From Terrimonas sp. (lineage in GTDB: Bacteria; Bacteroidota; Bacteroidia; Chitinophagales; Chitinophagaceae): 43,018 nucleotides of DNA. Location of the stretch: positions 1 to 43,018 of the forward strand of contig NZ_QCZJ01000039.1 in the NCBI RefSeq assembly GCF_003075435.1. The letters are read 5' to 3'. Positions 20,263-39,997 of this stretch are shown here, in pieces. The number at the start of each line of letters is the position of its first letter. Position 1 is the stretch's first letter. Made by a program: the position numbers and the translations under genes. The notes below the pieces were generated by a model, which was not told the DNA's origin, did not search any database, and saw nothing but the letters and a program-made list of their open reading frames with translations.

Positions 20263-20265
20263 TCT

Positions 20266-20598: not shown

Positions 20599-20606
20599 TT
20601 TTTGCT

Positions 20607-20627
20607 CGTTCTAAATATAAGAGAACG
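20607..20627 (+). promoter_or_regulatory. Inverted repeat before the precursor gene
   Basis: CGTTCT (20607-20612) and AGAACG (20622-20627) flank 9 bases, followed at once by the palindrome ACGGCCGT. This is 55 bp before the precursor start and could be an operator for the HTH protein or a leader hairpin. Weak evidence. Confidence 0.25.
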
Positions 20628-20681
20628 GCCGTTATGAACTTTGAGTCGCAATACAATTTTCATATCTTAAAAACATCTAGA

Positions 20682-21005
20682 ATGAAAAAATTAAAGTTAA
20701 GAGCTCTGGAATTAGGAGCCGAACAAATCCTCTCGCGGGAACAAATGAAGCGAGTCATCGGAGGCGAAGTTGGTAGCTGCGCTGTCTATCTGCCTAATGG
20801 AGCGACTAGTGGTTCTGTCTGGTCTAATATCCCCACAGACCCTGATTACAATTACAAGTCAATGACTATTAACAATGGCGTTTGGACGGTTTATGGCGTA
20901 ACAAAGGATACAGCAAGTGGGCAAGCTGCATCAATGGGAGGCAGTTGGTGTTGTACAAGTTGTAGTAGTGCTAGCTGGTATCATCCACCAGCCGGTTCCT
21001 CTTAA
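20682..21005 (+). CDS. GG-leader peptide precursor (bacteriocin/RiPP-like)
   Basis: 107 residues from ATG 20682 (an in-frame ATG at 20634 is less likely). The start MKKLKLRALELGAEQILSRE followed by QMKRVIGG is the leader of the Bacteroidota natural-product precursor class (TIGR04149-like). Cleavage after Gly27-Gly28 would free a 79-residue core with four Cys (33, 90, 91, 94), six Trp and many Ser/Thr/Gly, ending WCCTSCSSASWYHPPAGSS. Four cysteines fit two disulfides made by the neighbouring VKOR and TlpA-like proteins. A strong terminator follows it, as expected for a highly expressed precursor. Target and activity are unknown. Confidence 0.85.
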   Translation: MKKLKLRALELGAEQILSREQMKRVIGGEVGSCAVYLPNGATSGSVWSNIPTDPDYNYKSMTINNGVWTVYGVTKDTASGQAASMGGSWCCTSCSSASWYHPPAGSS

Positions 21006-21021
21006 ACTATTGTCATTGCAT

Positions 21022-21054
21022 AGAAGAAGAATGGGTTTTACCCATTCTTCTTTT
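21022..21054 (+). terminator. Rho-independent terminator after precursor
   Basis: A 15-bp stem with one G-T pair (21022-21036 with 21040-21054, loop TTT), ending in T residues, 16 bp after the precursor stop. Genes downstream would be reached by read-through or by a promoter in the next ~55 bp. Confidence 0.9.
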
Positions 21055-21109
21055 GATTGTCAATAAAATAGGATATGCTAACATATTGGTTACTAATTTT
21101 ACTGAAAAT

Positions 21110-22606: not shown

Positions 22607-22666
22607 ATATTTAGTAAACCCACGGCACTTATTTACAGGAAATACATGCTCAATAATAGAACTATT

Positions 22667-24190: not shown

Positions 24191-24328
24191 ATAGCGATTA
24201 TTGTTGAGTAGGATTTTTTCAACTTGTTATATTACTGTAGTGAAATTCTAATAATGAATTTTGACTATCGGAGATTGTATTTACGTATCTTAATAAGATT
24301 TGGATTAAGTAATCGTATTCTAACTTCT

Positions 24329-26581
24329 ATGCGGAAATTTGTTTTCTATCGACAACTAAATACAATGGATTGTGGCGCCGCTTGTCTTCGGATGGTTGCA
24401 CAGTTCTATGGTAAGCATTTTAACGCAAATAGTTTACGGCAAATGTCTGGGTTTAACAAGGAAGGAATTTCTTTGCTCGGCATCAGTGATACCGCAGAAA
24501 GAATTGGTTTCAGAACAAGGGGGACAAAATTAACTATGGAGCAATTAAGCGAAGCTCCTCCTCCGACAATATTACATTGGAAACAGAGTCACTTTGTTGT
24601 ATTGGTCAAACAATCCAAACATCGTATTAAGATAGCAGATCCCGGCAAGGGCATTATTGATTATACTATCCCAGATTTCAAAAAACATTGGCTTGCTTCT
24701 CAGGATGAATCCTCTAACGAAATGGGTATTGCCTTGTTATTAGAACCTACCCCAAAATTTTATACATTTGAAAGTCAAAAAGAGCAGAAGTTAAACTGGA
24801 GTTTGGTTCTTCAATATTTACGCTCTTCCAAATGGCAGCTAATGCAGGTTTTTATAGCGCTGCTCATTACTTCATTGCTTTCACTAATCTTCCCATTTTT
24901 AACGCAAAGCATTGTTGATACCGGTATTAATACGAACAATTTACAATTTGTAATTATTGTGCTACTGGCTCAGATAATGCTAACCTTTAGTCAAACCATT
25001 GTGAGTATAATAAGAAACAGATTGTTATTGAGAGTCTCGAATATTTTGAATATACAAATTCTTTCCGATTTTTGGATCAAACTCACTCGCCTTCCTATTT
25101 CTTATTTTGACTTGCATCATACAGGCGACACTTTACAACGCATAGGAGATCATAGGGCCATTCAAGGGTTTATTACCGGCACTGCACTAAATACATTGTT
25201 TTCGTTCTTTAATTTTATTGTTTATGCCATTGTGCTTGTGATATATAGTGCTCAGCTGTTTTTTGTTTTTTGTTTCGGTAGCTTTATTTATTTTGTATGG
25301 GTTCAACTTTTCTTACGTATTAGGCGAAAACTTAATTATGAAAACTTTCATCTTTCTGCAAAAGAAAACACCACCACGTTGCAACTTATACAAGGTATGC
25401 AAGAGATCCGCCTGAATAACGCTGAAAAGCAAAAGCGTTGGGAGTGGGAAAATATACAGGCCAGTGTATTTAAATTAGGGTTTAAAAGCCTTAACTATAG
25501 TCAAATACAAAGTACCGGCGCCACTTTTATCAATAGCATACAAGGCATAATAATTAGCTTTATTGTGGCAAAGCTTGTGATTGATGGGAAGTTAACTCTA
25601 GGAGCAATGTTAGCTATTCAGTACGTAATCGGTCAATTAAGTAGTCCGATTCAAGAATGGGTAGGATTTGTTCAAAATTTGCAAGATGCTAAAATTAGCA
25701 TGGAACGATTGAATGAAATACATCAACTGGTTGATGAGGAAAATGGAGAAAGGAGTTATATCGATCAGTTGCCTAAACAAAAAAGCATTATCATTAAAGA
25801 CCTCTCGTTTACTTACCCTGGCGCCGGTAATGATCCTGTTTTGGAAAATATAAATTTAACTATTGCTGAAAATAATGTAACTGCTATTGTTGGTAGCAGT
25901 GGAAGCGGCAAAACCACCTTAATTAAACTTTTACTGAAAGTTTATGAACAGTATGACGGGGATATAAGGGTGGGTGAATCTCATCTAAAGGTACCTACCT
26001 CTCAATTCACTAGCCGGAGAGACGAACCAGTAATCAGTTTGAAATTTGATTTTATTAGTCATAAATATTGGCGCAAATGTTGTGGTGCTGTCTTACAAGA
26101 CGGATTTATTTTTAACGATAGCATTGCGCGAAACATCGCAGTTGGCGAAGAAAATATCGACGCTCACCGCCTTTTCGAAAGTTGCCGGACGGCCAATATT
26201 CATACTTTTATAGAGAACCTTCCTAACGGATATTATACAAAACTGGGAGCTAATGGTACAGGTATCAGTCAAGGACAGAAGCAACGTATTATGATTGCTC
26301 GCGCTATTTATAAAAATCCTGATTATTTATTTTTTGATGAAGCCACAAACTCACTTGACGCTAATAATGAAAAGGAAATAGTAGAAAATCTCGGACTTTT
26401 TTTTAAAGGTAAAACTGTCGTTGTTGTGGCGCATCGCCTCAGTACGGTCAAAAATGCTGATAAGATTGTTGTGTTAGAAAAAGGGAGAATTGTAGAAGAG
26501 GGAACACATGAAGAACTTACAGCGCTAAAAGGAAAGTATTATGAACTAGTAAAAAATCAATTGGAATTAGGGGTATCCTAA
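24329..26581 (+). CDS. Peptidase-containing ABC exporter (C39 type)
   Basis: 750 residues from ATG 24329, which gives the usual start MRKFVFYRQLNTMDCGAACL. Residues 1-140: C39 peptidase with Cys15, the HFVVLV His and ADPGKG Asp, which cuts behind double glycine. Residues 190-460: six-helix ABC membrane domain. Residues 490-750: ATPase with Walker A GSSGSGKTT (522-530), signature GISQGQKQR (645-653), Walker B FFDEAT (near 670) and AHRLSTV. It is the exporter for the GG peptide. Oddity: about 20 extra residues (KVPTSQFTSRRDEPVISLKF) lie between VGESHL and the HKYWRKCCGAVLQDGFIF Q-loop, where relatives are continuous. Confidence 0.95.
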   Translation: MRKFVFYRQLNTMDCGAACLRMVAQFYGKHFNANSLRQMSGFNKEGISLLGISDTAERIGFRTRGTKLTMEQLSEAPPPTILHWKQSHFVVLVKQSKHRIKIADPGKGIIDYTIPDFKKHWLASQDESSNEMGIALLLEPTPKFYTFESQKEQKLNWSLVLQYLRSSKWQLMQVFIALLITSLLSLIFPFLTQSIVDTGINTNNLQFVIIVLLAQIMLTFSQTIVSIIRNRLLLRVSNILNIQILSDFWIKLTRLPISYFDLHHTGDTLQRIGDHRAIQGFITGTALNTLFSFFNFIVYAIVLVIYSAQLFFVFCFGSFIYFVWVQLFLRIRRKLNYENFHLSAKENTTTLQLIQGMQEIRLNNAEKQKRWEWENIQASVFKLGFKSLNYSQIQSTGATFINSIQGIIISFIVAKLVIDGKLTLGAMLAIQYVIGQLSSPIQEWVGFVQNLQDAKISMERLNEIHQLVDEENGERSYIDQLPKQKSIIIKDLSFTYPGAGNDPVLENINLTIAENNVTAIVGSSGSGKTTLIKLLLKVYEQYDGDIRVGESHLKVPTSQFTSRRDEPVISLKFDFISHKYWRKCCGAVLQDGFIFNDSIARNIAVGEENIDAHRLFESCRTANIHTFIENLPNGYYTKLGANGTGISQGQKQRIMIARAIYKNPDYLFFDEATNSLDANNEKEIVENLGLFFKGKTVVVVAHRLSTVKNADKIVVLEKGRIVEEGTHEELTALKGKYYELVKNQLELGVS

Positions 26582-26656
26582 TTTCAAAAATGGCTTAATC
26601 TATAGCGCTTTATGACACAGGTTCTTCTATGAAAAAATACTTCGAAAATAAAGTAT

Positions 26657-28000
26657 ATGAAAAATTTGAAAACAGATATAAATAAGGTTTTGGGCGAGGA
26701 ATTGAAGGATGAATCTAAACATAAGAATTTTCAAGAGAGGTCAGAAATGACACAGCAAATTATTAGTCATAGACTAGATTTCTTTGAAAGGTGGTCGTTA
26801 ATCATATTTCTTATTTTGTTACTTTCTCTACTGGTTGGCACTTGGTATATTCGTTATCCTGATATTATTGAAGGTATAGCAGTTCTTACTGGAGACAACG
26901 CTCCTAAACAAATTATACCCAGACAAGGAGGTCGATTAACAGCACTTTTTGTAGCGAATAACCAAACTGTGAAACAAGGTGAGGTTATTGGCTGGATCGA
27001 AAGCAGTGCGTCCACAAAAGAAGTTATCAACTTATCTGAGCAATTAGGAACTTGTATAAGTTTATGTGCGCAAGGAAATACAACAGAAGTTTCGGTTTTG
27101 TTTAATCAACGGCTTAAAGATTTAGGAGAGCTTCAAGCCCCATATCAAACGTTTGTCACAGCATGTCAAAAGTATAATGATTATGTAATTAACGGATTTT
27201 ACAATCGAAAAAGAGACATGCTGGAAAGCGAAATTTTATCGCTCCAGGGCATTCAAGAAAAAACGAATAGTCTAAGGGCTATAACAGAAAAGGAAAACGA
27301 GTTGGCAAAAGAAACCTTTAAAATGAAAGATATTCTTTTTAAAGACAAAGTAATCTCCGCTGATGAACATCGGCAGGCCCAAGTAGATTTAATAAATAAA
27401 CAAAAAAATATACCGCAGTTGGAAGCTACAATTCTTTCTCAGAAAAACCAAATAAGAGATAAGCAAAAAGAAATCGACCAATTGAATCATGATATTCTTC
27501 AGCAAGAGAAAATATATGAGCAAGCATTGCATACTCTGAAAAGTAATATAGATGAATGGTTAAGAATTTATACTATCCGGGCGCCCATTGGTGGACAAGT
27601 AGTTTTTGTGATGCCCATTCAACAGAACCAATATATTGAACAAGGAAAGTTACTAGGCTATGTTAATCCGCCTGACGTTAAATATTATGCTGAAGTGAAA
27701 CTTTCCCAATTGAATTTTGGCAAAGTGGATACAGGCATGAATGTACAACTAAGATTTGATGCATATCCTTACCAAGAATCTGGTTTTGTTTCTGGTACTC
27801 TAAATTATATTTCTAAAATTGCAATTGACAGCGGTTTTATTGCAACTGTGCGATTAGAAAAAGGATTAATGACAAACCAAAATAAAGAACTACAATATAA
27901 GCCTGGTCTAACATCAAAGGCTCTAATTATTACTAAAAATCAAAGATTGCTTGAACGGTTGTACTACAATATTGTAAGGGCTACATCGCTGAATAAGTAG
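26657..28000 (+). CDS. HlyD-family membrane fusion protein
   Basis: 447 residues. One membrane helix (about 47-68, SLIIFLILLLSLLVGTWYI), a lipoyl-type half motif (GGRLTALFVANNQTVKQGEVIGWI, 90-113), a long coiled-coil hairpin (about 185-295), the second half motif (IRAPIGGQVVFVMPIQQNQYIEQGK) and a beta barrel. It links the C39 ABC exporter to an outer-membrane channel, which is not encoded here. Last gene of the peptide locus. Confidence 0.92.
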   Translation: MKNLKTDINKVLGEELKDESKHKNFQERSEMTQQIISHRLDFFERWSLIIFLILLLSLLVGTWYIRYPDIIEGIAVLTGDNAPKQIIPRQGGRLTALFVANNQTVKQGEVIGWIESSASTKEVINLSEQLGTCISLCAQGNTTEVSVLFNQRLKDLGELQAPYQTFVTACQKYNDYVINGFYNRKRDMLESEILSLQGIQEKTNSLRAITEKENELAKETFKMKDILFKDKVISADEHRQAQVDLINKQKNIPQLEATILSQKNQIRDKQKEIDQLNHDILQQEKIYEQALHTLKSNIDEWLRIYTIRAPIGGQVVFVMPIQQNQYIEQGKLLGYVNPPDVKYYAEVKLSQLNFGKVDTGMNVQLRFDAYPYQESGFVSGTLNYISKIAIDSGFIATVRLEKGLMTNQNKELQYKPGLTSKALIITKNQRLLERLYYNIVRATSLNK

Positions 28001-28320: not shown

Positions 28321-29655
28321 CTAGGCCTGCTTTTTGTTAACAATGCTAATATCACCTCGCCGTTCCCAAAGTTCTTTGATCTTAAAACCAGCCTCTTCAG
28401 CAGTTATACGGATATATCGATAAAAGTCACAGATATTTTTATGCCCGCTAATCTTCATAATCAAATCAACAGGTGTGCCTGCTAAAAACTCATTCGTGCA
28501 GAATGAGCGGCGACACGTATGGGATGTAACCCAGGCATATTTCGGTTTGACCTCTACAATATCTTTATTCCCTCGTTTGTGTGAGAATTTTATCAATTCA
28601 GTAATGCCTGCTATTTCGGCAACTTCTTTTATGTAATAATTAAACTTCGAATTAGTGATTAAGGGAATATTCTTCTTAAAATTATTTGTGAATATATGAT
28701 CGGCTTCGTTCCTTAAAGGAATCACAACCCGATGGTCTGATTTTTCCTGCTTTTTATAAAGCATACCTTTCCTAATATCTTCAGGTTCAATAATTGAAAA
28801 ATCAGAAAATCGAAGTCCCGTTAAACATCCAAATACAAGAAGATCTCGATATTTTACTAAGTGTGGATATTTACCTAAGTCTGTTTGATATATAAGTGTT
28901 ATTTCTTCCCAGTTGAGGTAAACAGCATCCGATTCTTCATCCATCACTTTGAAGTCTTCAAAGTTAATTGGAGGAAAAATCTTACGCCTTATCCGGTTAT
29001 TCAGAAAAATACGGAGTTGTTTAATGGTTTTGCCTATAGTACTGATTTTAAATCCCCTTACCAATTTCTTTCTTCTCCGTTGTACATGTTCGTACGTCAT
29101 GTAATCTACAAATTCTTCATAGAAATTAATATCAAAAGATTCAAACGTAATTTGTTTTTTTCTATATTTCTCAAATGCTCTTAAAGTATCACGCATGTTA
29201 TTATAGACGTTAATCATCTTTGGAGTGACTTTCCTTTTTTTGCTCTTTATATATTCTTCAATTTGAAAAAACACATCAAGATTAATTTGGGGGAATGTTA
29301 TTTCTTGCCCTAATCTTTTTTCTAGGGTTGATACTTCAAAATCCGGGGAGAATGTATTTTTAAGAAATTCAAGGATATCAATATCATTTCTTTTTCTGGC
29401 GAAATTCACAATATCCTCTGCGATACGAATGCTTCTGAAAAGCTTATCATTATGTGCTTCAACATTTCCATAGATATTTGGAAGATCATTACTAATGCAT
29501 AGTTTCTTTTGATTCCAATACTCAGGTGGAATTGCTATTCCCGAATTCAGTAAAGTTCTTTTTTCAACCGAATGGCAATACTGAATAAAGATGACGCTTG
29601 TGCCGTCTTTGCGTTTTAGTGCCCTTTTGCACACCGGCTTAATAGGTAGTAACAT
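28321..29655 (-). CDS. Tyrosine recombinase (integrase)
   Basis: 444 residues of the Bacteroidota integrase type: N-terminal arm-binding-like domain (1-100), SAM-like core-binding domain (about 120-225) and catalytic domain. Catalytic residues seen: Arg282 (TGLRFSD), His379 and Arg382 (SHTCRRSF), His405 (SGHKN) and nucleophile Tyr414 (FYRYIRI). All are present, so it should be active. It sits at the end of the AT-rich peptide locus, pointing towards it, which suggests that the locus is or was part of an integrated island. No tRNA attachment site is visible nearby. Confidence 0.92.
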   Translation of the reverse strand: MLLPIKPVCKRALKRKDGTSVIFIQYCHSVEKRTLLNSGIAIPPEYWNQKKLCISNDLPNIYGNVEAHNDKLFRSIRIAEDIVNFARKRNDIDILEFLKNTFSPDFEVSTLEKRLGQEITFPQINLDVFFQIEEYIKSKKRKVTPKMINVYNNMRDTLRAFEKYRKKQITFESFDINFYEEFVDYMTYEHVQRRRKKLVRGFKISTIGKTIKQLRIFLNNRIRRKIFPPINFEDFKVMDEESDAVYLNWEEITLIYQTDLGKYPHLVKYRDLLVFGCLTGLRFSDFSIIEPEDIRKGMLYKKQEKSDHRVVIPLRNEADHIFTNNFKKNIPLITNSKFNYYIKEVAEIAGITELIKFSHKRGNKDIVEVKPKYAWVTSHTCRRSFCTNEFLAGTPVDLIMKISGHKNICDFYRYIRITAEEAGFKIKELWERRGDISIVNKKQA

Positions 29656-30738: not shown

Positions 30739-30772
30739 AATATTTGCAATACTGTTGCAAATATTATATTTT
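30739..30772 (+). promoter_or_regulatory. Palindromic operator overlapping a promoter
   Basis: AATATTTGCAA (30739-30749) and TTGCAAATATT (30755-30765) are perfect 11-bp inverted arms with a 5-bp centre. A TATATTTT at 30765-30772 resembles the Bacteroidota -7 box (TAnnTTTG), and TTTG inside the left arm lies at about the right distance for a -33 element. A repressor on the palindrome would block the promoter. The form (A/T-rich arms around TTGCAA) resembles Fur/Zur-family sites, which suits the metal-uptake genes downstream; the exact regulator is inference. Confidence 0.65.
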
Positions 30773-30802: not shown

Positions 30803-31129
30803 ATGCATTTTAACAAGACAGGTAAAAGATTATCAGCGCTGACAATGCTCAGCCTGATGACTTTTATTTTCGTTGTTAAAGTTTTTCATGCGTCTGCACA
30901 CGATACCTGTGCAAACTTTTCCGTTAATGGCAATGGAGTAAATCACATCTGCACCATTTGCGAATATCACTTTACCAAAGACGCAGATAATTTTCACTCC
31001 GTCATCTCAATACCAGATGCGGTTAACTTTTTGTTTTCTGACACGTGCAAAATATCCGCTTACTTTTTTGCCGCTGTTAACATTATTACGCTACGAGGTC
31101 CTCCTTTCACTACAGGTATATTACAATAG
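30803..31129 (+). CDS. Small secreted Cys/His protein (RGPP-tail type)
   Basis: 108 residues from ATG 30803 (TTG at 30797 also possible). Signal peptide to about residue 33 (LMTFIFVVKVFHASA), then HDTC, an ICTICEYHF motif (CxxC plus His near 52-58) and a C terminus LRGPPFTTGILQ. Bacteroidota carry many short periplasmic proteins of this build, with CxxC and an R-G-P-P tail, in front of metal-related TonB genes; they look like metal sensors or carriers but are uncharacterised. First gene behind the palindromic operator. Confidence 0.65.
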   Translation: MHFNKTGKRLSALTMLSLMTFIFVVKVFHASAHDTCANFSVNGNGVNHICTICEYHFTKDADNFHSVISIPDAVNFLFSDTCKISAYFFAAVNIITLRGPPFTTGILQ

Positions 31130-31471
31130 GTTTTACTTCACACCGGGAGGTGATCTGTTATTTCTTTTATGTTTTAAAGCCAGGGGCGCTTTAACTGCTG
31201 ATACCAGCATAGTGTTTATTCACTTTAATGCGTCGCTACGCATGATTCACTTCCGGATGAATTATACAGACCTACTGATCATTTAACAAGTATTTTTCTG
31301 TTCCATGTATCAGGTTAATGAAGACCTCACCAGAGAGTGTTCTGATGCCTGCTATACTATCAACTCATAGAAATCTCACCTGGTTTCAGGATAATAAAAA
31401 TGTTGTTGCAATAACGGGAGTATGCCGAAAATCCCCATAAGAGTAGGCGTTCATTTTTCAAATTTAACCAC
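31130..31471 (+). other. Gap before the short peptide gene
   Basis: 342 bp. A chance frame at 31017-31286 overlaps the previous gene and is not supported. GTTGTTGCAATAAC (31412-31425) is a near-palindrome around TTGCAA like the main operator and might be a second, weaker site for the same regulator in front of the peptide gene. Confidence 0.3.
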
Positions 31472-31579
31472 ATGCAAAATTCAGAAAAAAAAGCAACCCT
31501 GGTTGCGGCTATTATTGCTTTAAAAGCCGTTGGCGGCACGCATTGCAGTAACTGCGGTCACTGCAAAGCAACGCTCTAA
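31472..31579 (+). CDS. 35-aa GG-leader peptide with Cys/His-rich tail (metallophore candidate)
   Basis: ATG 31472 to TAA 31577-31579 encodes a leader MQNSEKKATLVAAIIALKAV, then GG, then THCSNCGHCKATL. The double glycine followed by a short tail is the build of exported peptides cut by C39-type or similar proteases. The 13-residue tail has three Cys and two His in CxxCxxC spacing with His beside the first and third Cys, a classic soft-metal binding arrangement. It is followed after 63 bp by an operon with ABC transporter, two outer-membrane receptors and a siderophore-type lipoprotein. It is too short for most gene finders. Function as a secreted metal-binding peptide is inference. Confidence 0.7.
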   Translation: MQNSEKKATLVAAIIALKAVGGTHCSNCGHCKATL

Positions 31580-31642: not shown

Positions 31643-32134
31643 ATGAATACCGAAACTATAGCGCTGAACCCTACGCAACTACAAGACATGTTATCCTATC
31701 GCAACGAAGATATCCTGTCACGCTTCACGGATATGTTTGAAGTTACCGGCGAAGAAGCGATGGACATTTTCCAGGAAACAAAGAAGTTTTTATATGTATG
31801 CCAGGTTGATGGCGTTTTTATTCCTGATGACCTGCTCATCGTAGATGAGATGTGGCACAACTTTATTCTTTTCACCAAAGAATACCATGCATTCTGCAAC
31901 CGGTATTTCAATCGATACTTCCATCACCTGCCTGCATCAAAAGCAGAAAAAGAGGAGCAAAAACGCAAAAACCTGGAGGATCCTGAAAGTGCACGTAGCA
32001 TGTATTTACAAAAACTGGAGCATGTGATCAGTACAGTGTATGATCACCTGGGAGAAGCGACCGTCATAAAGTGGTTTCAGCAATATCCTGCAACATACAG
32101 TAAAGAAAATATCAAACAACTAAGAAAAGTATGA
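31643..32134 (+). CDS. GRDP-like (PF07173-type) protein
   Basis: 163 residues from ATG 31643. The central motif VDEMWHNFILFTKEYHAFCNRYFNRYFHHLP (residues 67-97, given here in two parts: VDEMWHNFILF and TKEYHAFC..HHLP) matches the WH-x8-Y-x2-FC-x7-HH signature of glycine-rich-domain-like proteins, with His72, His82, Cys85, His94 and His95 as possible metal ligands. No signal peptide. Its stop overlaps the next start (ATGA). Directly behind the peptide gene, it is a candidate for peptide modification, metal loading or leader handling; no activity is known for this family in bacteria. Confidence 0.65.
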   Translation: MNTETIALNPTQLQDMLSYRNEDILSRFTDMFEVTGEEAMDIFQETKKFLYVCQVDGVFIPDDLLIVDEMWHNFILFTKEYHAFCNRYFNRYFHHLPASKAEKEEQKRKNLEDPESARSMYLQKLEHVISTVYDHLGEATVIKWFQQYPATYSKENIKQLRKV

Positions 32135-33024
32135 GCATCTTTCCTAAAAGAAATATACCAGGTTCCACTGTTACCATTCATTGGAACTTCAATACTGCAC
32201 ACATTACCGATGTGCATGTATGTCCTTATGTGCGTATTGGTGTGCAATCGCCTGACGGCACAACCACCATGCTGTTTGAACAGCATGTATTGGGGCTGCC
32301 TGCCATTCAAATGCCTGCAGATCCCGCTTCGGGGCAGCAATTGCTGTATTTAAACAAAAATACACCCTTGTTAGTGCTGGCTGATTATTTAAGCACACAC
32401 CATAAAAGAGCGGAGCTAATACAGATACTTCAAAATATTCAGGCCGGCCGGCATTATTATTTTACCTACCCCATTCCCCAAAATGCACCGTTGGGAAAGT
32501 ATACATTAATTTCTGAGGTATATAATGGAGGAAATATTAAATACTCTGCAACGGCTTCGGATGATTCGTTTTTTGTAGAGCATATCTCCGTTAAAGAAAA
32601 TAAAATCATTAATCATTCGTGTGAACCAACGCCGGTTAAGATCGTTACCTGGCAACCGGATAAAAAATTACAACCTGAAAATATAGCGGTATTTGAAATG
32701 CAGCCGGGAGAAATCATACCGGTATATGCTTTTCCGGAAAATTCTTTTTTATGCTATAACGAAGAGCGGATTATACTTTCCCTTCAGCGTCCGGATGCTG
32801 TTCGCTGCATTCGCAATCAGCAGGCGCTCTGTTTATCTAAAGATGACAGCCTTCATGTACTTCTGCCTGGTAATAATGCATTTACGTTGGAAAATGATGA
32901 AAAACTAATCTGGGAAAAAGCAGATGGTATTACTCAGGGAGAAGAAATATGTACTCAGGGTAAGGAGCATCTCTACCGCGAAATGATCGAAAATAAATTA
33001 ATCATAGAAATAAAAACACAGTGA
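32131..33024 (+). CDS. Unknown beta-rich protein of the peptide operon
   Basis: 297 residues, family not recognised. Residues 1-150 look like an Ig-like beta sandwich (STVTIHWNFNTAH, VHVCPYVRIGVQSPDGTT, NAPLGKYTLISEVYNGG, DDSFFVEHISV). The second half is also strand-rich and contains several Cys (FLCYNEERI, AVRCIRNQQALC). No signal peptide or membrane helix. Start overlaps the previous stop (ATGA) and its stop overlaps the next start (TGATG), so it is a core part of this operon, possibly a peptide-processing or scaffold protein. Confidence 0.65.
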   Translation: MSIFPKRNIPGSTVTIHWNFNTAHITDVHVCPYVRIGVQSPDGTTTMLFEQHVLGLPAIQMPADPASGQQLLYLNKNTPLLVLADYLSTHHKRAELIQILQNIQAGRHYYFTYPIPQNAPLGKYTLISEVYNGGNIKYSATASDDSFFVEHISVKENKIINHSCEPTPVKIVTWQPDKKLQPENIAVFEMQPGEIIPVYAFPENSFLCYNEERIILSLQRPDAVRCIRNQQALCLSKDDSLHVLLPGNNAFTLENDEKLIWEKADGITQGEEICTQGKEHLYREMIENKLIIEIKTQ

Positions 33025-33740
33025 TGACAACACCTGTACAAGATCGTGTGGAAGCGATTGATCTGACTAAAGCATACAATGGGCATACGGCGTTAAACAA
33101 ATTAAATCTCCGGCTTAAGGCAGGTGAAATTTTTTGCCTGCTGGGTCAGAATGGAGCCGGCAAAACCACAACCATTAATATTTTTCTTGGCTTTATAGAA
33201 GCTACTGCCGGAAAGGCGATTATTAACGGGGTGGATGTTAAACCGGGTAATAGCGAGAGTAAAAAACATCTTGCTTATATACCAGAAGTTGTTCAATTAT
33301 ATGGCAATCTTACAGGAATAGAGAACCTTGATTTTTTTAGCCGGCTGGTAGGATTTAATTACCGCCAGGATAAACTGGAGCAATTGCTGCTGCAAGCCGG
33401 ACTGCAGCAGGAAGCACATAGCAGGAAATTAGTGCATTATTCAAAAGGCATGCGCCAGAAAGTAGGCATTGCCATTGCACTTGCTAAAAATGCAGATGTG
33501 ATTTTTATGGATGAACCTACCAGCGGACTGGATCCTAAGGCTACACAGGAATTTACAACAATTGTGAAAGCATTAGGGCACAAGGGCAAAACAATTCTTA
33601 TGGCTACTCACGACATTTTTAATGCGGTTAATGTGGGAACGCATATTGGTATTATGAAAAACGGCACACTTGTGCATACGCTCAAAACGGCGGATATCAC
33701 GGCGAATGAATTACAAAAACTCTACCTGGAAACTATTTAA
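33024..33740 (+). CDS. ABC transporter ATP-binding protein
   Basis: 238 residues of the CcmA type. Walker A GQNGAGKTT at residues 41-49, Q-loop region YIPEVVQLYGNLTG, signature YSKGMRQKV, Walker B VIFMDEPTSGLD, and H-loop ATHD. ATG at 33024 overlaps the previous stop; a GTG lies one codon upstream. It would power the two DUF3526-like permeases at 37126 and 38552, which lack their own ATPase, to export (or less likely import) the operon's product. Confidence 0.93.
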   Translation: MTTPVQDRVEAIDLTKAYNGHTALNKLNLRLKAGEIFCLLGQNGAGKTTTINIFLGFIEATAGKAIINGVDVKPGNSESKKHLAYIPEVVQLYGNLTGIENLDFFSRLVGFNYRQDKLEQLLLQAGLQQEAHSRKLVHYSKGMRQKVGIAIALAKNADVIFMDEPTSGLDPKATQEFTTIVKALGHKGKTILMATHDIFNAVNVGTHIGIMKNGTLVHTLKTADITANELQKLYLETI

Positions 33741-33754
33741 AGTCATCTTGATAC

Positions 33755-35899
33755 ATGAAGTTTTTTATTCCTCTGACCTTTATGCTGCTATCCTCCTATG
33801 CCTGCTTTGCACAAAACGATAGCACGACCCGCGATAGCAGCCGCATATTAAGTGCCGTTACAGTATACGGCAGGGTTAGTATAAAAGCGCTGAAGCAACA
33901 GCCATTTAATATTTCGGTAATAGATGCAACACCATATTACAGCAGCAATATTACCGGTGTGGATCTGCTGAGGCAGGCTTCTGGTATTAAGATTAAGCAG
34001 AATGGCGGCTTTGGCTCCGGTAACGATTTTTTTATTAATGGCAGCTCCGGTAAGCAGGTAAAGTTTTTTATTGACGGGTTGCCGCAGGATAACCTGGGAG
34101 AAACGCAGGCATTGAATATTTACCCCGTGGAGCAGATAGAAAGGCTGGAAGTATATAAAGGTGTGCTGCCGGTGGAATTAGGCGCTGATGCGCTTGGAGG
34201 CGCTATAAATATAATAACCAGGAAGGAGCGGGAAGATTATATTAATGCGTCTTACTCCATTGGTTCCTTTAATACACATAAACTGAATTTGTTTGGAAAG
34301 AAATACCTGGGCAAACATTTTTTTACCTCGCTGCAGGCAAACTTTAATTATGCTGGTAATAACTACCCGGTGCAGGCAGCAGTTATCAGGTCTAACGGGC
34401 AGGCAGATACCATGAATGTCCGTTTATTTCATGACCGTTTTAAAAATTATAATGTCAGGTTCCAGGTTGGTTATAGTGGAAAACGGTTTGCAGATCAGCT
34501 AACGCTAACTTTTTTGCAAACAGGCATGTATGACCAATTGCAGCATAGCTTGATGATGCAGCAGCCGTACGGTTTTGTTTACCGCAACGAAAAATTACAA
34601 AGCGCCGTGTTGCGGTATCAAAAAGCAGATCTGTTGCCTGAGACGGATGTTGCCGCAATGGTTTCTTACAACAGGGTAAACAGCCTGTTAATGGATACGT
34701 CGCGGTATGCATTTTTATGGAATGGAGAAGTTGCTACAGACCTGAACGGACAGCCGCAACGTAAACTGAGTGGTGGTGAACTAAGCTCTTCCGGCCACGA
34801 ATTATATACCTATACAGATGTATTCAACGGAAAGCTTACTACTGTCTATAAACTGAGTGACCAGGTTAAGCTTGTTTTCAGTAATACTTTCCTGTGGTAC
34901 AGGCGCACCGGCAGAGATCCTGTTGCGCAAAAGTTCTACGGCGGCATTGATTATTACAGTACACCATCGGAGATGACAAAAAATGTGGGGGGAATTGGAT
35001 TGGAAGGAAAACTCAATAAATCAAAATGGCGATATCTAACCTCACTCAAACATTATTATACTTCCATAAAAGGATTTGAGATCATAGACCTTCATCAGAC
35101 AATATCCCGAAAAACAATTGCGAAACTGGCATGGAATGCAGGCTTAGGGTATCAATGGAACGAACGTCTTTTATTAAAACTTTCGTATGAACATGCAGCA
35201 AGGTTGCCAGATCCAGAGGAGGCATTTGGAGATTTCACTTATGTAACTGCCAATCCCGGCATTAATGCAGAAGCAAGTGAAAATCTTAACCTGACCGGAA
35301 TGTATAATACCAACAGGTTGGAATTTGAACTAACAGCATTTTACCGGAATGTGAAAGACCTGATTTACCTGCCGCCTTCCCAATTTTACAGCCGCTATGA
35401 TAACCTGCTTAACCTTCGTGTGGCAGGTATTGAGGGTGGTATAAAATATCGCTTATGGAAGAACATTATTATCAATGGAAATTTTACCTGCCAGGATCTC
35501 CGCAATCAGTCTGATATCAGCAACAGACCTATAGATAATGAACGGTATAGAAACAGCCGCATGCCTAATGTGCCCTACCTGTTTGCCAATGGCAGCATCA
35601 ATTATAGCATACGGGATTTTTTTAGAACCGGTAATAGTTTTCAATTGTGGTATACGGCCAATTATACGCACGAATACTTTTTATACTGGGCCGAAGATGG
35701 AGACCGTGAACTAAAGAACCGCCTGCCCACGCAACTGCTGCACGGAGCCGGTATCTCCTTCTCGCCATACGATGGACTGTCCCTGGCTTTAGAAACAACC
35801 AATATTACCAATGCACGTACCTACGACAATTTCAAAGTGCAGCTTCCCGGAAGAGCATTCAGCTTTAAAATAAGATTTTATCAATTCAATAAAAAATAA
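33755..35899 (+). CDS. TonB-dependent receptor
   Basis: 714 residues. Signal peptide (1-19, ending YACFAQ), TonB-box-like SAVTVYGR, plug domain (NITGVDLLRQASGIKIKQNG, VKFFIDGLPQDNLGE, VEQIERLEVYKGVLPVELGA, GGAINIITRKE) and a beta barrel ending RAFSFKIRFYQF. There is no carboxypeptidase-like N-terminal domain and no SusD partner, so it is of the metal-chelate/vitamin receptor type rather than a glycan receptor. Followed after 5 bp by a lipoprotein gene that may form its surface lid or ligand-binding partner. Confidence 0.9.
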   Translation: MKFFIPLTFMLLSSYACFAQNDSTTRDSSRILSAVTVYGRVSIKALKQQPFNISVIDATPYYSSNITGVDLLRQASGIKIKQNGGFGSGNDFFINGSSGKQVKFFIDGLPQDNLGETQALNIYPVEQIERLEVYKGVLPVELGADALGGAINIITRKEREDYINASYSIGSFNTHKLNLFGKKYLGKHFFTSLQANFNYAGNNYPVQAAVIRSNGQADTMNVRLFHDRFKNYNVRFQVGYSGKRFADQLTLTFLQTGMYDQLQHSLMMQQPYGFVYRNEKLQSAVLRYQKADLLPETDVAAMVSYNRVNSLLMDTSRYAFLWNGEVATDLNGQPQRKLSGGELSSSGHELYTYTDVFNGKLTTVYKLSDQVKLVFSNTFLWYRRTGRDPVAQKFYGGIDYYSTPSEMTKNVGGIGLEGKLNKSKWRYLTSLKHYYTSIKGFEIIDLHQTISRKTIAKLAWNAGLGYQWNERLLLKLSYEHAARLPDPEEAFGDFTYVTANPGINAEASENLNLTGMYNTNRLEFELTAFYRNVKDLIYLPPSQFYSRYDNLLNLRVAGIEGGIKYRLWKNIIINGNFTCQDLRNQSDISNRPIDNERYRNSRMPNVPYLFANGSINYSIRDFFRTGNSFQLWYTANYTHEYFLYWAEDGDRELKNRLPTQLLHGAGISFSPYDGLSLALETTNITNARTYDNFKVQLPGRAFSFKIRFYQFNKK

Positions 35900-35904
35900 C
35901 AAAC

Positions 35905-37089
35905 ATGAATACAACCTTCAAATCTATTATCGGACTATCGCTCCTCGTATTATTATTTACGGCATGTAAAAAAAACAACGATCCGGAGCCCAACGACCAG
36001 TCGGTTAATTACGCACTATCTGTTACCGGCGGCACATATCCCAATCAAACTACTTACATTTTTGGAACAAAAGCGTTTCCGGCTGGTACGGTTAATACAG
36101 GCAATGCGGTGGAACTCAGCAGCTCGGGGCAAATGTTTAAATATGGCAGCGAAATCTATGTGTCCAGCTTTGGAGCTCCTGCCACGTTGCGGAAATACAG
36201 TTTTGACGAAACCGGTAAACCAACACAATCAGGTAGTATTGCTGTGCCGGGACTCAACACATTCGGTGCAGTGGAATTTTTAAGCGCTACGGAAGCTTAC
36301 GCCGCTTCAAATGGCTTTGGCGGCATTCCCCAGATGGTCAGGTTTAATCCATCTACCATGGAAATACTGGGTTATATTGACCTGAGCACACTTCAGTTGC
36401 CGGGTGCTTCAGAGATCTATTATCTCGGGTTGGTTGAAAGAGATGATTACCTGTTCATGGGCGTCAATTACCAGAATGCCTCTTTTGAAAACCTGGAAGA
36501 TGCTGTGTTTGTTGCGGTGATCAATAAAAGTACATCCACCGTTGAAAAATTACTGAAGGACACCCGTACCAATATGATGTGGAATGGTGGCACTACTTCT
36601 TCTTTCAGTCCTGCCTGCCTGGTAAAAGATGCCGCAGGAGATATTTATGTAAATGGTTATGCTAACAATGGTAAACCAAGCGGCATATTAAAAATCAGTA
36701 AAGGCACAACCGAATTTGATGCTTCTTATTTTTTTGATCTTGACGCTGTAACAGGTGGCCATTGCCTGGGTATTTTTTATTTTGATGATGATCATGTTTT
36801 TACTGTTAAATATTCAGATGAATCCGCTTACCCGTTTGATGGCAGCGCAGCCGGAGAACTGTACAAAATAAATCTCTCTGCTACATCCACTTCCGGGAAC
36901 ATCGCTGCCTCATTACCCAAATTTTTTGGCAGCTATACATTTATGACCAAATGGGATAACGAGAAAATTTATTTCAACATAGCAGCGCCCGGCAGCAACG
37001 CTATTTATTCTTATAAGATAAGCGACGGCGCCGTAACGAAAGAATTTGATTTGACAGGACAATGCAACGGCTTCACCAAAATAAAATAA
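35905..37089 (+). CDS. DUF4374-like beta-propeller lipoprotein
   Basis: 394 residues with a lipobox (VLLFTACKK, Cys21). The rest is a series of short beta-propeller-like repeats (IYVSSFGAPATLRKYSF, PQMVRFNPSTMEILGYIDL, DIYVNGYANNGKPSGILKI, GELYKINLS). This fits DUF4374 lipoproteins. Members of that family pair with TonB receptors and bind ferric siderophores on the cell surface (XusB of the Bacteroides xenosiderophore system, as I recall it). Here it lies between a TonB receptor and the ABC permeases, so it is a good candidate for capturing the metal-loaded peptide. Confidence 0.7.
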   Translation: MNTTFKSIIGLSLLVLLFTACKKNNDPEPNDQSVNYALSVTGGTYPNQTTYIFGTKAFPAGTVNTGNAVELSSSGQMFKYGSEIYVSSFGAPATLRKYSFDETGKPTQSGSIAVPGLNTFGAVEFLSATEAYAASNGFGGIPQMVRFNPSTMEILGYIDLSTLQLPGASEIYYLGLVERDDYLFMGVNYQNASFENLEDAVFVAVINKSTSTVEKLLKDTRTNMMWNGGTTSSFSPACLVKDAAGDIYVNGYANNGKPSGILKISKGTTEFDASYFFDLDAVTGGHCLGIFYFDDDHVFTVKYSDESAYPFDGSAAGELYKINLSATSTSGNIAASLPKFFGSYTFMTKWDNEKIYFNIAAPGSNAIYSYKISDGAVTKEFDLTGQCNGFTKIK

Positions 37090-37125: not shown

Positions 37126-38541
37126 ATGATGTACAGCATAATCAAAAATGAATGGCTGCAATACAGCAGGGATAAACGCATTGTGTGGCTGATTGCTTTT
37201 TTATTGCTGATAAGCGCCTTTGCCTTATGGCATCAGTTGGATTTTCAAAACCAACTGAACAGCACAAGGATGAAAGCGCAGCAGGATTCCCGCAGGGAAT
37301 GGCTGTCGCAGGAATTGAAACATCCGCATATAGCGGCCCACTTTGGTAACTATGCCTATAAAAAACCGGCATTGCTGCATTGTTTTGACCCGGGGCTTAG
37401 CATTTATACCGGCACGTCAGTATATATGGAACCGCACCGGCAAAATGATTTTCTATTCAGCAAAGGACAGGAAAGTGATACGGGAATACGTTTCGGATGG
37501 TTAAGTCCGGCATTGATCTGCCAGCTATTGCTGCCCTTGTTAATTATTGTGCTGTCATTTAATAGTATTAATGGTGAGGTTGAAAAAGGAACCATGTCTT
37601 TATTGCTCTCACAGGGCATATCATTCAGGCAACTGTTGTTTGCAAAAACGTTGGCTGTGTTTCTTGTTTTTGAAATTTTTGTGACTGCTTATTTATTAGC
37701 CACGGCAATAGCGGCAGGTTTACTGTTAAAAGCAGCTGTTGACCCTGCCGGTATATTTTACCTGTGGCTGGTTTATAGCTGCTACTGTATTATCTGGAGC
37801 TTATCGGGCGTATATATCTCTTCCCGTATTAAAAATGCAGGAGGAGCTATTGCCGTGTTGCTGTTGTGCTGGATGTTTACCAATATTCTATTGCCGCGTA
37901 TAAGCGCTAACATAGCAGAAAATGTGTACCCTGTTGCTACCAACTACCAGTTCAGGAAAAAGATTTCTGAAGCCATTGAAAAGGGACTTGACGGACATGA
38001 TGCGCAAGGCGAAAGAGCAAAACGGATAGAACAGGAATTGCTTGCAAAATACAAAGTAGACAGCGTGGAGCAGTTGCCTTTCAACTTTGAAGGATATATT
38101 ATGCAGCAGGGTGAGGAGTATAGCAGTAAAGTATATGATAATTATTTCGGTGAAATTTTCAACAGCCTTAAAAAACAAAAGACACTTCAGTCGTGGCTGG
38201 GTTTGGGTAGCCCGTTTGTTGCGCTCCGGAATATATCAATGGCTGCATCCAATGCAAGCCTGGAATCAGAAATAGATTTCCAGCAGCAGGCGGAACATTA
38301 CCGGCGCAGCTTTGTACAGAACCTCAATAATGATATGCGCGACAATTCCGCTTACGGCAGTTTCAATACATATAAGGTAAGCAAGGATACATACGGCTCC
38401 ATTAGTGATGTAGAGATAAAGAATCATCCGCTTGCCTGGTCCTTTCCCCATATAATACCGGACAATATCGGGTTGCTCTGTTGGCTGCTGGTATTGATCA
38501 TATTAATGTACAACAGGAGCAATATAACGGGTTACCATTAA
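37126..38541 (+). CDS. ABC permease, DUF3526 type (first copy)
   Basis: 471 residues. One N-terminal helix (17-36), a ~100-residue outer loop (GNYAYKKPALLHCFDPGLSIYTG, with TSVYMEP), then a cluster of five helices with NSINGEVEKGTMSLLLSQGISFRQLLFAK, a second large loop (about 280-440) and a last helix. The E..GT..LLL...S.....AK motif is the ABC-2 permease coupling region. The build matches DUF3526 permeases. Works with the ATPase at 33024 and the paralogue downstream. Confidence 0.85.
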   Translation: MMYSIIKNEWLQYSRDKRIVWLIAFLLLISAFALWHQLDFQNQLNSTRMKAQQDSRREWLSQELKHPHIAAHFGNYAYKKPALLHCFDPGLSIYTGTSVYMEPHRQNDFLFSKGQESDTGIRFGWLSPALICQLLLPLLIIVLSFNSINGEVEKGTMSLLLSQGISFRQLLFAKTLAVFLVFEIFVTAYLLATAIAAGLLLKAAVDPAGIFYLWLVYSCYCIIWSLSGVYISSRIKNAGGAIAVLLLCWMFTNILLPRISANIAENVYPVATNYQFRKKISEAIEKGLDGHDAQGERAKRIEQELLAKYKVDSVEQLPFNFEGYIMQQGEEYSSKVYDNYFGEIFNSLKKQKTLQSWLGLGSPFVALRNISMAASNASLESEIDFQQQAEHYRRSFVQNLNNDMRDNSAYGSFNTYKVSKDTYGSISDVEIKNHPLAWSFPHIIPDNIGLLCWLLVLIILMYNRSNITGYH

Positions 38542-38551
38542 AAACAAAAGA

Positions 38552-39997
38552 ATGAAGCTACAGAACAGACATAAAGGAATTGCCTTCAACATGCATTACT
38601 GGTTTTTAAAAAAACAACGGGTAAATATTTTACTGTTTACTGTTTTCATGTTGACCGGGCTGTATGGTCTTTACCAGGGTTTTGCCTTTAAGCAAAAACA
38701 AATACGAACCATTGATGCTTTCCGGAGTGAAAAATTAAAAGCATTAAATGAATTAAAATCGGGCTTTGCAATGGATACTACAAAGCCCGAAGGGAAAGCA
38801 GCCTACGCAAAAGCAACCGGAATTATATCAAGCAACTGGAATATTGTTTTACCGGCAGGTAAAATGCCCTCTGGCGCCGCTGTTTTTAATATAGGCCAGG
38901 CTGATATTTTTCCCTACTACTATACAATCAAAAATGAAAGCTTCTTTATGCAGCTTTTTAAGCAGGGAGAAATTGCTAACCCGTTAAGATCGCTTGCCGG
39001 TCATTTTGATATCAGTTTTTGGATCGTTTACCTGCTTCCTTTGCTGGTTGTGATACTATGTTTTAATACCTTGTCTGCGCAATATGATAACAGCAACTGG
39101 AAACTCATCGGCAGCCAGGGTATCAGTGCCCGGCAATGGGTACTGTCTAAATGTTTGCTGGTTGGATTACTGGTCTGCGCCATGGTAACTGTTATATTCA
39201 TTATCGGGCTGGCGCTGAATTACCGGGCTTTTAAGCAGGCTCCTGTTGCAGGCGATTTTCTTTTCCTGCTAATTACTGTTGTTTATCTTGCTTTCTGGCT
39301 TGCTGTAGTATATGCTATCAATGCATATACAAAAAATACCAGTAGCGCCGCCCTAGCGGGAGGTATAGCCTGGATTGCTTTTTGTTTTATCATTCCCACA
39401 CTGGTAACCTCCATTGCCGAAAAAACAATCCCCGTTGATAATACCCTGGTAAGCCGGATGTCCAGGAGACCGCAGGGATCGAAATTTGATGATACAACGT
39501 TTGCCAAACAAACCATTACGCAGCTTGGTATACTTCGGCCACAGTATAAGCAAACAACGCTGCGTCCTCAAAGTCCCGCTTTTGTATTTGCTACCTATAT
39601 GTCTTATCATGAATTGATGGATGACACAAATAGAATAGCGGTAAATGATTATTTCAATCGCATAGAGCAGCGCCAGCAGGTAACTAATACAACCACCCTT
39701 ATTAATCCCGCAGCGGGTATCGATGGAATATTCGCTCATTTGGCTGCTAACGATGCGCAGGCTAACCACGATTTTATATGGCAGGCAAAAGCTTTGCACC
39801 AGGGATTACACGATGCTTATTTCCCTCCGCTGTTTTTTGAAAAACGACTGGCGGAAAATGATTATGAAAGGTTCCCGCTTTTCAGTTATAAGCCGGCCAC
39901 AATTTCGGCAAACAGTATTCTTACCTGTATGGAACTATTGCTTTCAACTGCCTTTATTTTTTTAATCAGTAACAGGAGGCTGAAAAAAAAGTGGTGA
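38552..39997 (+). CDS. ABC permease, DUF3526 type (second copy)
   Basis: 481 residues, with the same build as the gene before it: N-terminal helix (VNILLFTVFMLTGLYGLYQG), outer loop, central helices with LSAQYDNSNWKLIGSQGISARQWVLSK, second outer loop and C-terminal helix. The ABC-2 coupling motif is recognisable. It is a paralogue of the 37126 product, and the pair probably forms a heterodimeric transport channel. Its TGA overlaps the ATG of the next gene (TGATG). Confidence 0.85.
   Translation: MKLQNRHKGIAFNMHYWFLKKQRVNILLFTVFMLTGLYGLYQGFAFKQKQIRTIDAFRSEKLKALNELKSGFAMDTTKPEGKAAYAKATGIISSNWNIVLPAGKMPSGAAVFNIGQADIFPYYYTIKNESFFMQLFKQGEIANPLRSLAGHFDISFWIVYLLPLLVVILCFNTLSAQYDNSNWKLIGSQGISARQWVLSKCLLVGLLVCAMVTVIFIIGLALNYRAFKQAPVAGDFLFLLITVVYLAFWLAVVYAINAYTKNTSSAALAGGIAWIAFCFIIPTLVTSIAEKTIPVDNTLVSRMSRRPQGSKFDDTTFAKQTITQLGILRPQYKQTTLRPQSPAFVFATYMSYHELMDDTNRIAVNDYFNRIEQRQQVTNTTTLINPAAGIDGIFAHLAANDAQANHDFIWQAKALHQGLHDAYFPPLFFEKRLAENDYERFPLFSYKPATISANSILTCMELLLSTAFIFLISNRRLKKKW

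Follow-up and report, generated by a model that had tools for sequence, protein, structure and literature searches.

Methanobactins are short ribosomal peptides that carry cysteines, operate in a metal-starvation setting, and return to the cell by TonB-type re-uptake. To our knowledge, the ribosomal metallophores described to date all serve copper and are products of MNIO enzymes. The zincophores pseudopaline, coelibactin, and EDDS are enzymatic products and are not ribosomal. Excerpts of PMC6103462 place these zincophores under Zur-type control and describe their uptake as TonB dependent. XusB, the surface lipoprotein of the XusABC system, works with a TonB transporter and binds iron-siderophores according to the accessible part of PMC13142918. 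ZepA of Anabaena is an exported zinc-handling exoprotein encoded among zinc genes (excerpts of PMC10957091), and TIGR04222 proteins with Cys tails are discussed as putative precursors or MNIO substrates in the available portion of PMC12452194.

We compared these systems with an operon in a 43,018-nt stretch of Terrimonas sp. DNA (hereafter, the window). There, a 35-aa ORF is followed by a co-directional run of genes for a 163-aa protein, a 297-aa protein, an ABC ATPase, a TonB receptor, a DUF4374-type lipoprotein, two DUF3526 permeases, an outer-membrane barrel, and a MATE protein. The sequence-only reading of this DNA was right to place a short gene directly ahead of a transport operon. The features are as follows.

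30744–30760, no strand: Fur/Zur-type palindromic box, TTGCAATACTGTTGCAA, at the operon head before the small CxxC protein gene (consensus from relatives)
30803–31129, + strand: small protein with a hydrophobic N-terminus, CxxC, and a C-terminal GPP (alignment of 8 diverse proteins from related operons)
31402–31415, no strand: second, shorter dyad, GTTGTTGCAATAAC, before the peptide gene
31415–31449, + strand: DUF805b RNA (RF02914), a pseudoknot-like 5′ leader element (35.5 bits, gathering 35.6, E 1.6e-8)
31472–31579, + strand: precursor peptide gene, an ATG ORF of 35 aa, MQNSEKKATLVAAIIALKAVGGTHCSNCGHCKATL
31643–32134, + strand: GRDP-like protein, 163 aa, with DEMWHNFI...Y..FC...HHxP conserved (35-sequence alignment, hhalign, peptide association, model)
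32131–33024, + strand: conserved 297-aa protein with beta-sandwich regions and a small C-terminal region with helices (10-sequence alignment, pLDDT 77.8)
33021–33740, + strand: ABC transporter ATPase (PF00005, 6.2e-28)
33755–35899, + strand: TonB-dependent receptor (nearest NCBIfam model MxcH, 398 bits, cut-off 925)
35905–37089, + strand: XusB-like (DUF4374) lipoprotein, candidate surface metallophore binder (phmmer to XusB 9hqe, E 2.9e-7)
37126–38541, + strand: DUF3526 ABC-2 permease 1 (PF12040, 1.8e-29)
38552–39997, + strand: DUF3526 ABC-2 permease 2 (PF12040, 1.9e-11)
39991–42171, + strand: outer-membrane beta-barrel protein with plug, OMP_b-brl_3 (PF14905, 1.6e-90)
42194–42928, + strand: MATE transporter, N-terminal part only in frame, 244 aa (PF01554, 1.8e-20)

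At odds slightly better than even (roughly 0.55), we propose that the 35-aa ORF encodes the precursor of a Zur-type-regulated ribosomal metallophore, likely for zinc, whose processing would involve the GRDP-like protein and whose recapture would fall to the TonB and XusB-like proteins. Such a system would share with methanobactins a short ribosomal Cys peptide, TonB-type uptake, and a metal-starvation setting. Methanobactins, however, are MNIO-made copper chelators, whereas the window system has another partner protein and a regulon pointing to zinc. MNIO modification is ruled out for the window genome by the lack of PF05114 matches (0 at E ≤1e-6), and this domain is likewise absent from 7 of the 10 genomes examined that carry a window-like locus (type A, defined below); 4 of 15 system genomes were positive versus 2 of 14 control genomes. 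Radical SAM domains gave 17 matches in the Terrimonas genome, 16 of them over the cut-off, and none among the operon proteins scanned. Zur-type control and TonB uptake would be shared with the Zur-regulated zincophores, but the enzymatic origin of those compounds contrasts with the ribosomal one proposed here. With XusABC of B. thetaiotaomicron and B. fragilis, the operon shares a TonB receptor and a DUF4374 lipoprotein homologous to XusB, but it has an ABC ATPase and two DUF3526 permeases instead of PepSY, along with a peptide of its own; a Pfam scan of nine operon proteins at E 0.001 yielded no PepSY protein (XusC). ZepA, as a folded protein that is secreted, differs from the short peptide of the window, and the accessible text of PMC10957091 mentions no GRDP-like partner for it. 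Finally, the PF07173/TIGR04222 proteins show a profile-profile link (99.0) to the 163-aa partner and have Cys-rich C-terminal tails, but the window splits domain and Cys peptide into separate genes. Some TIGR04222 proteins with such tails have been proposed as MNIO substrates (available excerpts of PMC12452194), in contrast to the window genome with its lack of detected MNIO.

Searches of open-access full text found no paper containing any of the core or motif strings tried. Among the open-access matches listed, the accessible text held no paper on peptide maturation for GRDP-like, PF07173, or DUF1399, and nothing comparable for zincophore/RiPP or for Zur/Bacteroidetes. Among the matches listed for RiPP metallophores in Bacteroidota is an MNIO peptide of Chryseobacterium, judged from its abstract to be a different system.

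Relatives of the locus were retrieved from GTDB contigs by using the neighboring 163-aa protein, and not the peptide, as the query. This search returned 32 loci from Bacteroidota, Shewanella/Alteromonas, and one cyanobacterium (33 loci including the window). Type A comprises loci where the GRDP-like gene lies beside TonB-receptor, DUF4374-type, or 297-aa genes, with the caveats that the contig of locus L017 is without a 297-aa gene and that the operon is incomplete on the short contig of L012. A peptide ORF occupies the same position in all 14 type-A loci examined (13 from the sample plus Aureibacter tunicatorum plasmid pAT2). On pAT2, the peptide (MEKKETIIENLLAERKDLGLGHCSNCGHCSASF) is followed by a GRDP-like gene (E 2e-52), a gene for a 310-aa hypothetical protein at the position of the 297-aa gene, and then genes for a TonB receptor, a DUF4374 protein, an ABC ATPase, and two DUF3526 proteins.

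Translation of 31472–31579 gives a precursor of the form MQNSEKKATLVAAIIALKAVGG-THCSNCGHCKATL, in which residues 1 to 22 form the leader (K7, L10, and I11 conserved) and residues 23 to 35 form the candidate core THCSNCGHCKATL with H24, C25, H30, and C31. The peptide ORF ends 63 nt before the start of the GRDP-like gene. When the 13 type-A peptides from the sample were aligned (window, L007–L013, L015–L017, L059, and L060), leader positions K7, L10, and I11 were found to be nearly invariant; within the core, there is no variation at C25, H30, or C31, and 12 of the 13 peptides have H24. Pairwise codon comparisons, which covered 10 of the 14 type-A peptides in one group of six and one group of four, gave pN < pS in 21 of 21 pairs; for the window and F. 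psychroterrae genes, pS is 0.66 and pN is 0.21. Moreover, the reading frame is preserved among type-A peptides, length changes occur as whole codons, and the Cys and His residues are retained though their codons differ. Because relatives found without a peptide query carry the ORF at the equivalent position, and because all 21 pairs show pN < pS, the ORF is beyond chance: it is a real gene that is under purifying selection where tested.

A search of 379 family genomes with a profile of the 13 peptides gave matches at E <1e-10 in six (the next match being 1.2e-3), and the 297-aa protein was found in 6 of 394 genomes at E 1e-6. These are the identical six genomes, and in all of them the genes for the peptide, the GRDP-like protein, and the 297-aa protein are consecutive. 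Type-A loci present traits of a RiPP system, namely an encoded precursor with conserved leader and core and an adjoining dedicated partner. The core may be modified post-translationally, and its two His and two invariant Cys residues could suffice for one tetrahedral metal site.

The sequence-only reading had seen a double-glycine leader and expected the ORF to be kept with GG and Cys/His invariant. The ORF is kept (14 of 14) and the HC...HC residues are nearly invariant, so the check by which it could have failed, related loci without the ORF or without retained Cys/His, was decided in its favor. GG, by contrast, precedes the core only in the window, F. psychroterrae, and Filimonas (3 of 14 type-A peptides), and double-glycine logic fails because of its absence from the other 11. 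In the fetched stretches of the other type-A loci, no C39 peptidase transporter was seen, and ORFs of that ABC blast cluster are only ATPases of 231 to 254 aa. We therefore rejected double-glycine export via the C39-type transporter at 24224–26581 as a general mechanism, since GG and transporter are missing from most related loci. This transporter is accompanied by a GG peptide of its own (20634–21005, RVIGGEVGSCAVYL...) in a separate secretion cluster (18589–28000), which also includes a vitamin-K-reductase/thioredoxin-like protein, a TlpA-like protein, and an HlyD-like protein (26657–28000); all of these names, including C39-type and HlyD-like, are our assumptions from the look of the sequences. 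Between this cluster and the peptide operon lies a minus-strand gene (28321–29655) for what is presumably an integrase-like tyrosine recombinase.

The XusB-like lipoprotein scores 24.6 bits against PF14298 (DUF4374), for which the cut-off is 25, and the MATE blast cluster recurs in L007, L011, L012, L016, and L017. Eight diverse copies of the small CxxC protein, which are 15% to 30% identical to the window copy, have M1, C50, C53, P100, and P101 invariant in alignment; the protein matched neither Pfam (E 0.01) nor NCBIfam (E 0.1) and is probably exported. No Pfam match above the cut-off was obtained for the 297-aa protein, and the 50 listed PDB matches to its model, all with TM <0.4, indicate only a beta-sandwich. 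By eye, its C-terminus seemed to resemble PqqD, which would make it a candidate RRE. This resemblance was not confirmed: hhalign against two PqqD proteins, a template of two sequences only, gave a nonsignificant probability of 4.6 (N-terminal control 0.1). PqqD itself was not found in the Terrimonas genome at E ≤1e-6.

A second genome of the same genus (G336) carries the uptake genes by themselves. Its locus L085 (6250–15541) includes ABC, TonB, XusB-like, two DUF3526, and OMP genes with no peptide, GRDP-like, or 297-aa gene alongside, and no peptide or 297-aa match occurs elsewhere in that genome. The L085 operon adjoins a divergent Fur-family gene. Because this operon exists without peptide genes, strict dependence of the uptake genes on the peptide is disfavored and the transporters can serve another ligand; the uptake part can perhaps stand alone, maybe for a foreign or other ligand.

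The palindrome common to the upstream regions of type-A relatives is TTGCAAYANNRTTGCAA. The window box matches with 0 mismatches, which was reached by 0 of 300 single-base shuffles, and exact copies occur at only two places in the 6.18 Mb Terrimonas genome. The second copy stands between a MerC gene and an SCO1-Fur-family gene pair. Boxes with ≤3 mismatches head 13 of 14 operons tested, a count that includes L085 (no peptide), omits Aureibacter, and rests on about 250 nt compared with single-base shuffles at a head chosen per locus (the gene for the peptide, the small CxxC protein, or, in L017, the TonB receptor). Exactly 3 mismatches are present in L007, L013, L015, and L059, where 6 to 12 of 300 shuffles reach an equal score, and the L012 box has 4 mismatches (48 of 300). 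Within the 160 nt before the peptide gene itself, boxes with ≤3 mismatches occur at 5 of 13 loci versus 5 of 166 other genes, the latter being the zinc-cluster reductase of L007, the ZigA-like gene of L009, two TonB receptor ORFs of L017, and a reductase fragment at the stretch edge of L060. A looser pattern, GCAAYNNNRTTGC, was set aside after matching 66 genome sites versus 8 for the reversed-pattern control. Of ten one-mismatch sites in the Terrimonas genome, two were opened: one is beside a thioredoxin-reductase-like gene with homologues in related loci, and the other (C8:168011) has no evident metal gene but lies near a short ORF that, by eye, ends like the small protein of L085. The shorter dyad GTTGTTGCAATAAC has 1 match in the window versus 0.05 expected (5 of 100 shuffles had one), and similar dyads are seen by eye at the equivalent place in some relatives.

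Genes near the peptide in related species speak to the metal involved. In F. psychroterrae (L007), the peptide gene stands after a same-strand cluster that encodes a reductase, COG0523, a MoCF protein, threonyl-tRNA synthetase, a dCTP-deaminase-like protein, HisI, FolE, a Fur protein, LCIB carbonic anhydrase, QueD, MerC, and an acid phosphatase. We read this cluster as typical of zinc starvation. Excerpts of PMC2770081 list HisI, ThrRS, QueD, and carbonic anhydrase paralogues along with COG0523 in Zur regulons of beta- and gamma-proteobacteria, although the carbonic anhydrase there is of another class than LCIB. The Mucilaginibacter oryzae locus (L009) has a gene for a ZigA-like zinc chaperone (562 bits, cut-off 600) divergent from the peptide gene, and the two share an intergenic region carrying boxes. 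Because a Fur/Zur-type box precedes the zinc cluster of L007 and stands between the ZigA-like gene and the peptide gene in L009, metal acquisition is indicated, and zinc is most likely the metal.

Nevertheless, a ribosomal metallophore of equal build could serve copper or iron instead, which we consider an unlikely alternative. The zinc-starvation genes share the operator in relatives, whereas the Terrimonas genome itself shares it with MerC and SCO1-Fur and not with classic zinc genes. SCO1 we take to be a copper-protein family, and HmuY and CobN genes flank the Aureibacter operon; both observations call for caution on zinc. The Cys-rich ribosomal chelators known to us serve copper. In addition, bufferins and methanobactins are described as copper chelators (available part of PMC12452194), and the XusB family binds ferric siderophores (excerpts of PMC13142918). 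Set against copper or iron are the COG0523, ThrRS, HisI, FolE, QueD, and carbonic anhydrase genes beside the F. psychroterrae peptide, the ZigA-like gene in Mucilaginibacter, and the fact that two of four scanned Fur proteins have Zur as their best model. These two are from the Terrimonas genome (36.9 bits) and L085 (38.7 bits), both far below the NCBIfam Zur cut-off of 167, and those of L007 and L012 are best matched by other Fur/PerR models.

The constant companion of the peptide, in a role that the sequence-only reading missed, is the 163-aa protein, which is probably a remote GRDP-like protein. It gives no match to Pfam PF07173 (GRDP-like) up to E 1, but its family aligns by hhalign with a probability of 99.0 to an alignment of four distant Bacteroidota GRDP-like proteins. 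The best of these four reaches E 4.2e-4 against PF07173 (21.5 bits, cut-off 22.7), two others are weaker, and the fourth (L041) has no match. The predicted model is all-helical (pLDDT 94.5) and found no fold match in the PDB (best E 3.2). Among 35 aligned copies, a set that omits the L010 copy (near-identical to L009) and includes the L012 copy only before its stop, D68, M70, W71, H72, N73, F74, Y81, H95, and P97 are invariant and E69, C85, and H94 are nearly so. The interrupted copy is that of Hymenobacter lapidarius (L012, 1393–1860), where the gene is broken near its end. Residues D68, H72, H94, H95, and C85 form a putative metal site, and we propose that the protein is a processing or metal-dependent partner of the peptide.

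A Cys peptide lies directly upstream of the GRDP-like gene in 29 of 33 loci, compared with 31 of 391 other genes from these loci that served as controls, counting ORFs with ≥2 Cys near the end and a stop ≤160 nt upstream; L020 is counted via a less similar peptide and L019 via a long Cys peptide. In the four remaining loci, the peptide is directly downstream (L014), lies behind a second GRDP-like copy (L025), would fall at a contig edge (L026), or is represented by peptides ~270 nt or more away (L027). The peptide differs strongly among architectures, which comprise the window-like uptake operon (A), Marivirga and relatives with a hybrid histidine kinase (B), Flavobacterium/Chryseobacterium with an S9-type hydrolase (C), and Shewanella and relatives, in which GG peptides occur with an HlyD-like protein and a large C39-kind ABC transporter (D; HlyD and C39 being names that we assume from the look of the sequences). 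In L024, L025, L031, L032, and L036 (Shewanella/Alteromonas), several similar GG peptides, mostly with CxxxCxxxC cores, are encoded ahead of one or two copies of the GRDP-like gene and of genes for an HlyD-like protein and a large ABC transporter. These peptides are a candidate second family for the GRDP-like partner.

A search of 395 phylum genomes for distant relatives hit 13 of them, with 14 matches in all, corresponding to two close copies, 11 longer proteins (284–463 aa, L042–L052), and L041 (143 aa), whose C-terminal end is CGFCCN. In each of the 11 longer proteins, a GRDP-like domain at the N-terminus is combined with a C-terminal tail rich in Gly and Cys (2 to 8 Cys among the final 45 residues); two that were scanned gave weak TIGR04222 matches. 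Small E. coli plasmids encode a GRDP-like relative with a Cys/Gly tail and, after it, an ABC transporter and a JmjC/cupin protein (25 Escherichia records matched, two opened). The opened plasmids, L122 (376–3601) and L124, are about 7.9 and 12.6 kb and mobilizable, and may carry a peptide natural-product system. Because Cys peptides lie upstream in 29 of 33 loci, and Cys tails are present on the longer and plasmid relatives, the GRDP-like domain by sequence accompanies Cys-rich peptides in trans or in cis.

The bacteriocin-like layout of the mobilizable E. coli plasmids, with Cys-tailed GRDP-like protein, ABC transporter, and JmjC protein, and the pairing of Shewanella peptides with HlyD and a large ABC transporter raise the idea of an antimicrobial or toxic peptide. 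The ABC ATPase/DUF3526 and MATE proteins would then provide self-protection, and the TonB receptors would be Trojan-horse or scavenging parts. The ATPase and permeases do resemble lantibiotic-immunity ABC models, all below cut-off. We regard this explanation as improbable, given that it is opposed by the metal-starvation box and neighbors, by the XusB-like lipoprotein, and by a core that is conserved across several families and not diversified.

The element immediately before the window peptide gene matches DUF805b RNA (RF02914), and its 35.5 bits are just short of the gathering score. Of the relatives scanned with Rfam, L011 (40.7), L018 (41.2 and 44.3, at two places), and Aureibacter (L123, 53.4 bits) exceed that score, whereas L008 is below it (26.3 bits). 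By pattern or eye, the element is present at 14 of 14 type-A loci (12 by pattern, a variant in L007, and Aureibacter). It is not specific to the peptide operon, since a stronger copy (45.4 bits) exists elsewhere in the Terrimonas genome (C30:12343–12377, L095), before an 88-aa ORF with a signal-peptide-like start. No paper was found under the name DUF805b in open-access full text.

A peptide gene directly after a cis-regulatory RNA could also mean that the product remains inside the cell or periplasm, where, as a small buffer or sensor for metal, it would tune the uptake operon like a leader peptide or co-regulator. Its short length, the lack of an evident signal peptide (by eye), and the nonconserved GG fit this idea. 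However, a leader peptide would need no dedicated conserved partner protein, and such peptides accompany the GRDP-like protein in 29 of 33 loci, whose downstream genes are of several kinds, so we give this alternative little weight, slightly less than the antimicrobial one. That the ORF is untranslated and its conservation belongs to an RNA, as the adjacent DUF805b element might suggest, is very improbable given pN < pS in 21 of 21 pairs, whole-codon length changes, and Cys/His residues kept while codons change.

Returning to the proposed metallophore, the following course of events would be consistent with the sequences. Upon metal starvation, a Fur-family (Zur-like) repressor would leave the palindromic box, and the operon genes would be transcribed as one unit, with the DUF805b RNA maybe adding control before the peptide gene. 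The GRDP-like protein, and maybe also the 297-aa protein, would recognize the leader through its K-x-A-L-I helix and process the Cys/His core (HC-SNCG-HC), possibly by metal-dependent Cys modification. Cleavage would yield a mature product ending in HCSNCGHCKATL, which the ABC ATPase and two DUF3526 permeases may move across the inner membrane in the presumed export direction. Once secreted, its two His and two to three Cys would bind one metal ion, probably zinc, and the XusB-like lipoprotein and TonB receptor would take the complex back in.

Support for this metallophore comes from the conservation of the peptide, its association with the GRDP-like protein, the box, the zinc-type neighbors, and the likeness to XusB. 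Points against it are the G336 uptake operon without peptide genes, the iron siderophores bound by XusB proteins in the accessible part of PMC13142918, and the Terrimonas Fur protein scoring far below the Zur cut-off. Likewise, neither a protease nor a dedicated exporter for the peptide was identified, and pairs of GRDP-like protein and Cys peptide also occur with other neighbors, such as the Shewanella C39-type transporter and the Marivirga histidine kinase. The earlier idea of a ribosomal metallophore precursor is thus partly supported: it holds in outline, through the conserved Cys/His precursor, TonB/XusB-like operon, Fur/Zur-type box, and zinc-starvation neighbors, and was wrong on the double glycine. 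The GRDP-like protein as constant partner, the operator, the DUF805b RNA, and the link to zinc are additions to it.

More tentatively, and with less than even confidence, GRDP-like proteins may define a widespread class of Cys-peptide maturation that acts in trans in Bacteroidota, Shewanella, and cyanobacteria and in cis in Flavobacteriia-like proteins and E. coli plasmids. The type-A systems would then make the first ribosomal zincophore, with Zur-type control and XusAB-like recapture.

The system is small, with one peptide and two partner genes, and is directly testable. If the proposal is true, it would give bacterial GRDP-like proteins and the orphan DUF805b RNA their first testable role, and would account for the recurring XusB/DUF3526 uptake operon of Bacteroidota. 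A zinc-linked ribosomal metallophore with a non-MNIO partner would also widen the known kind of such molecules.
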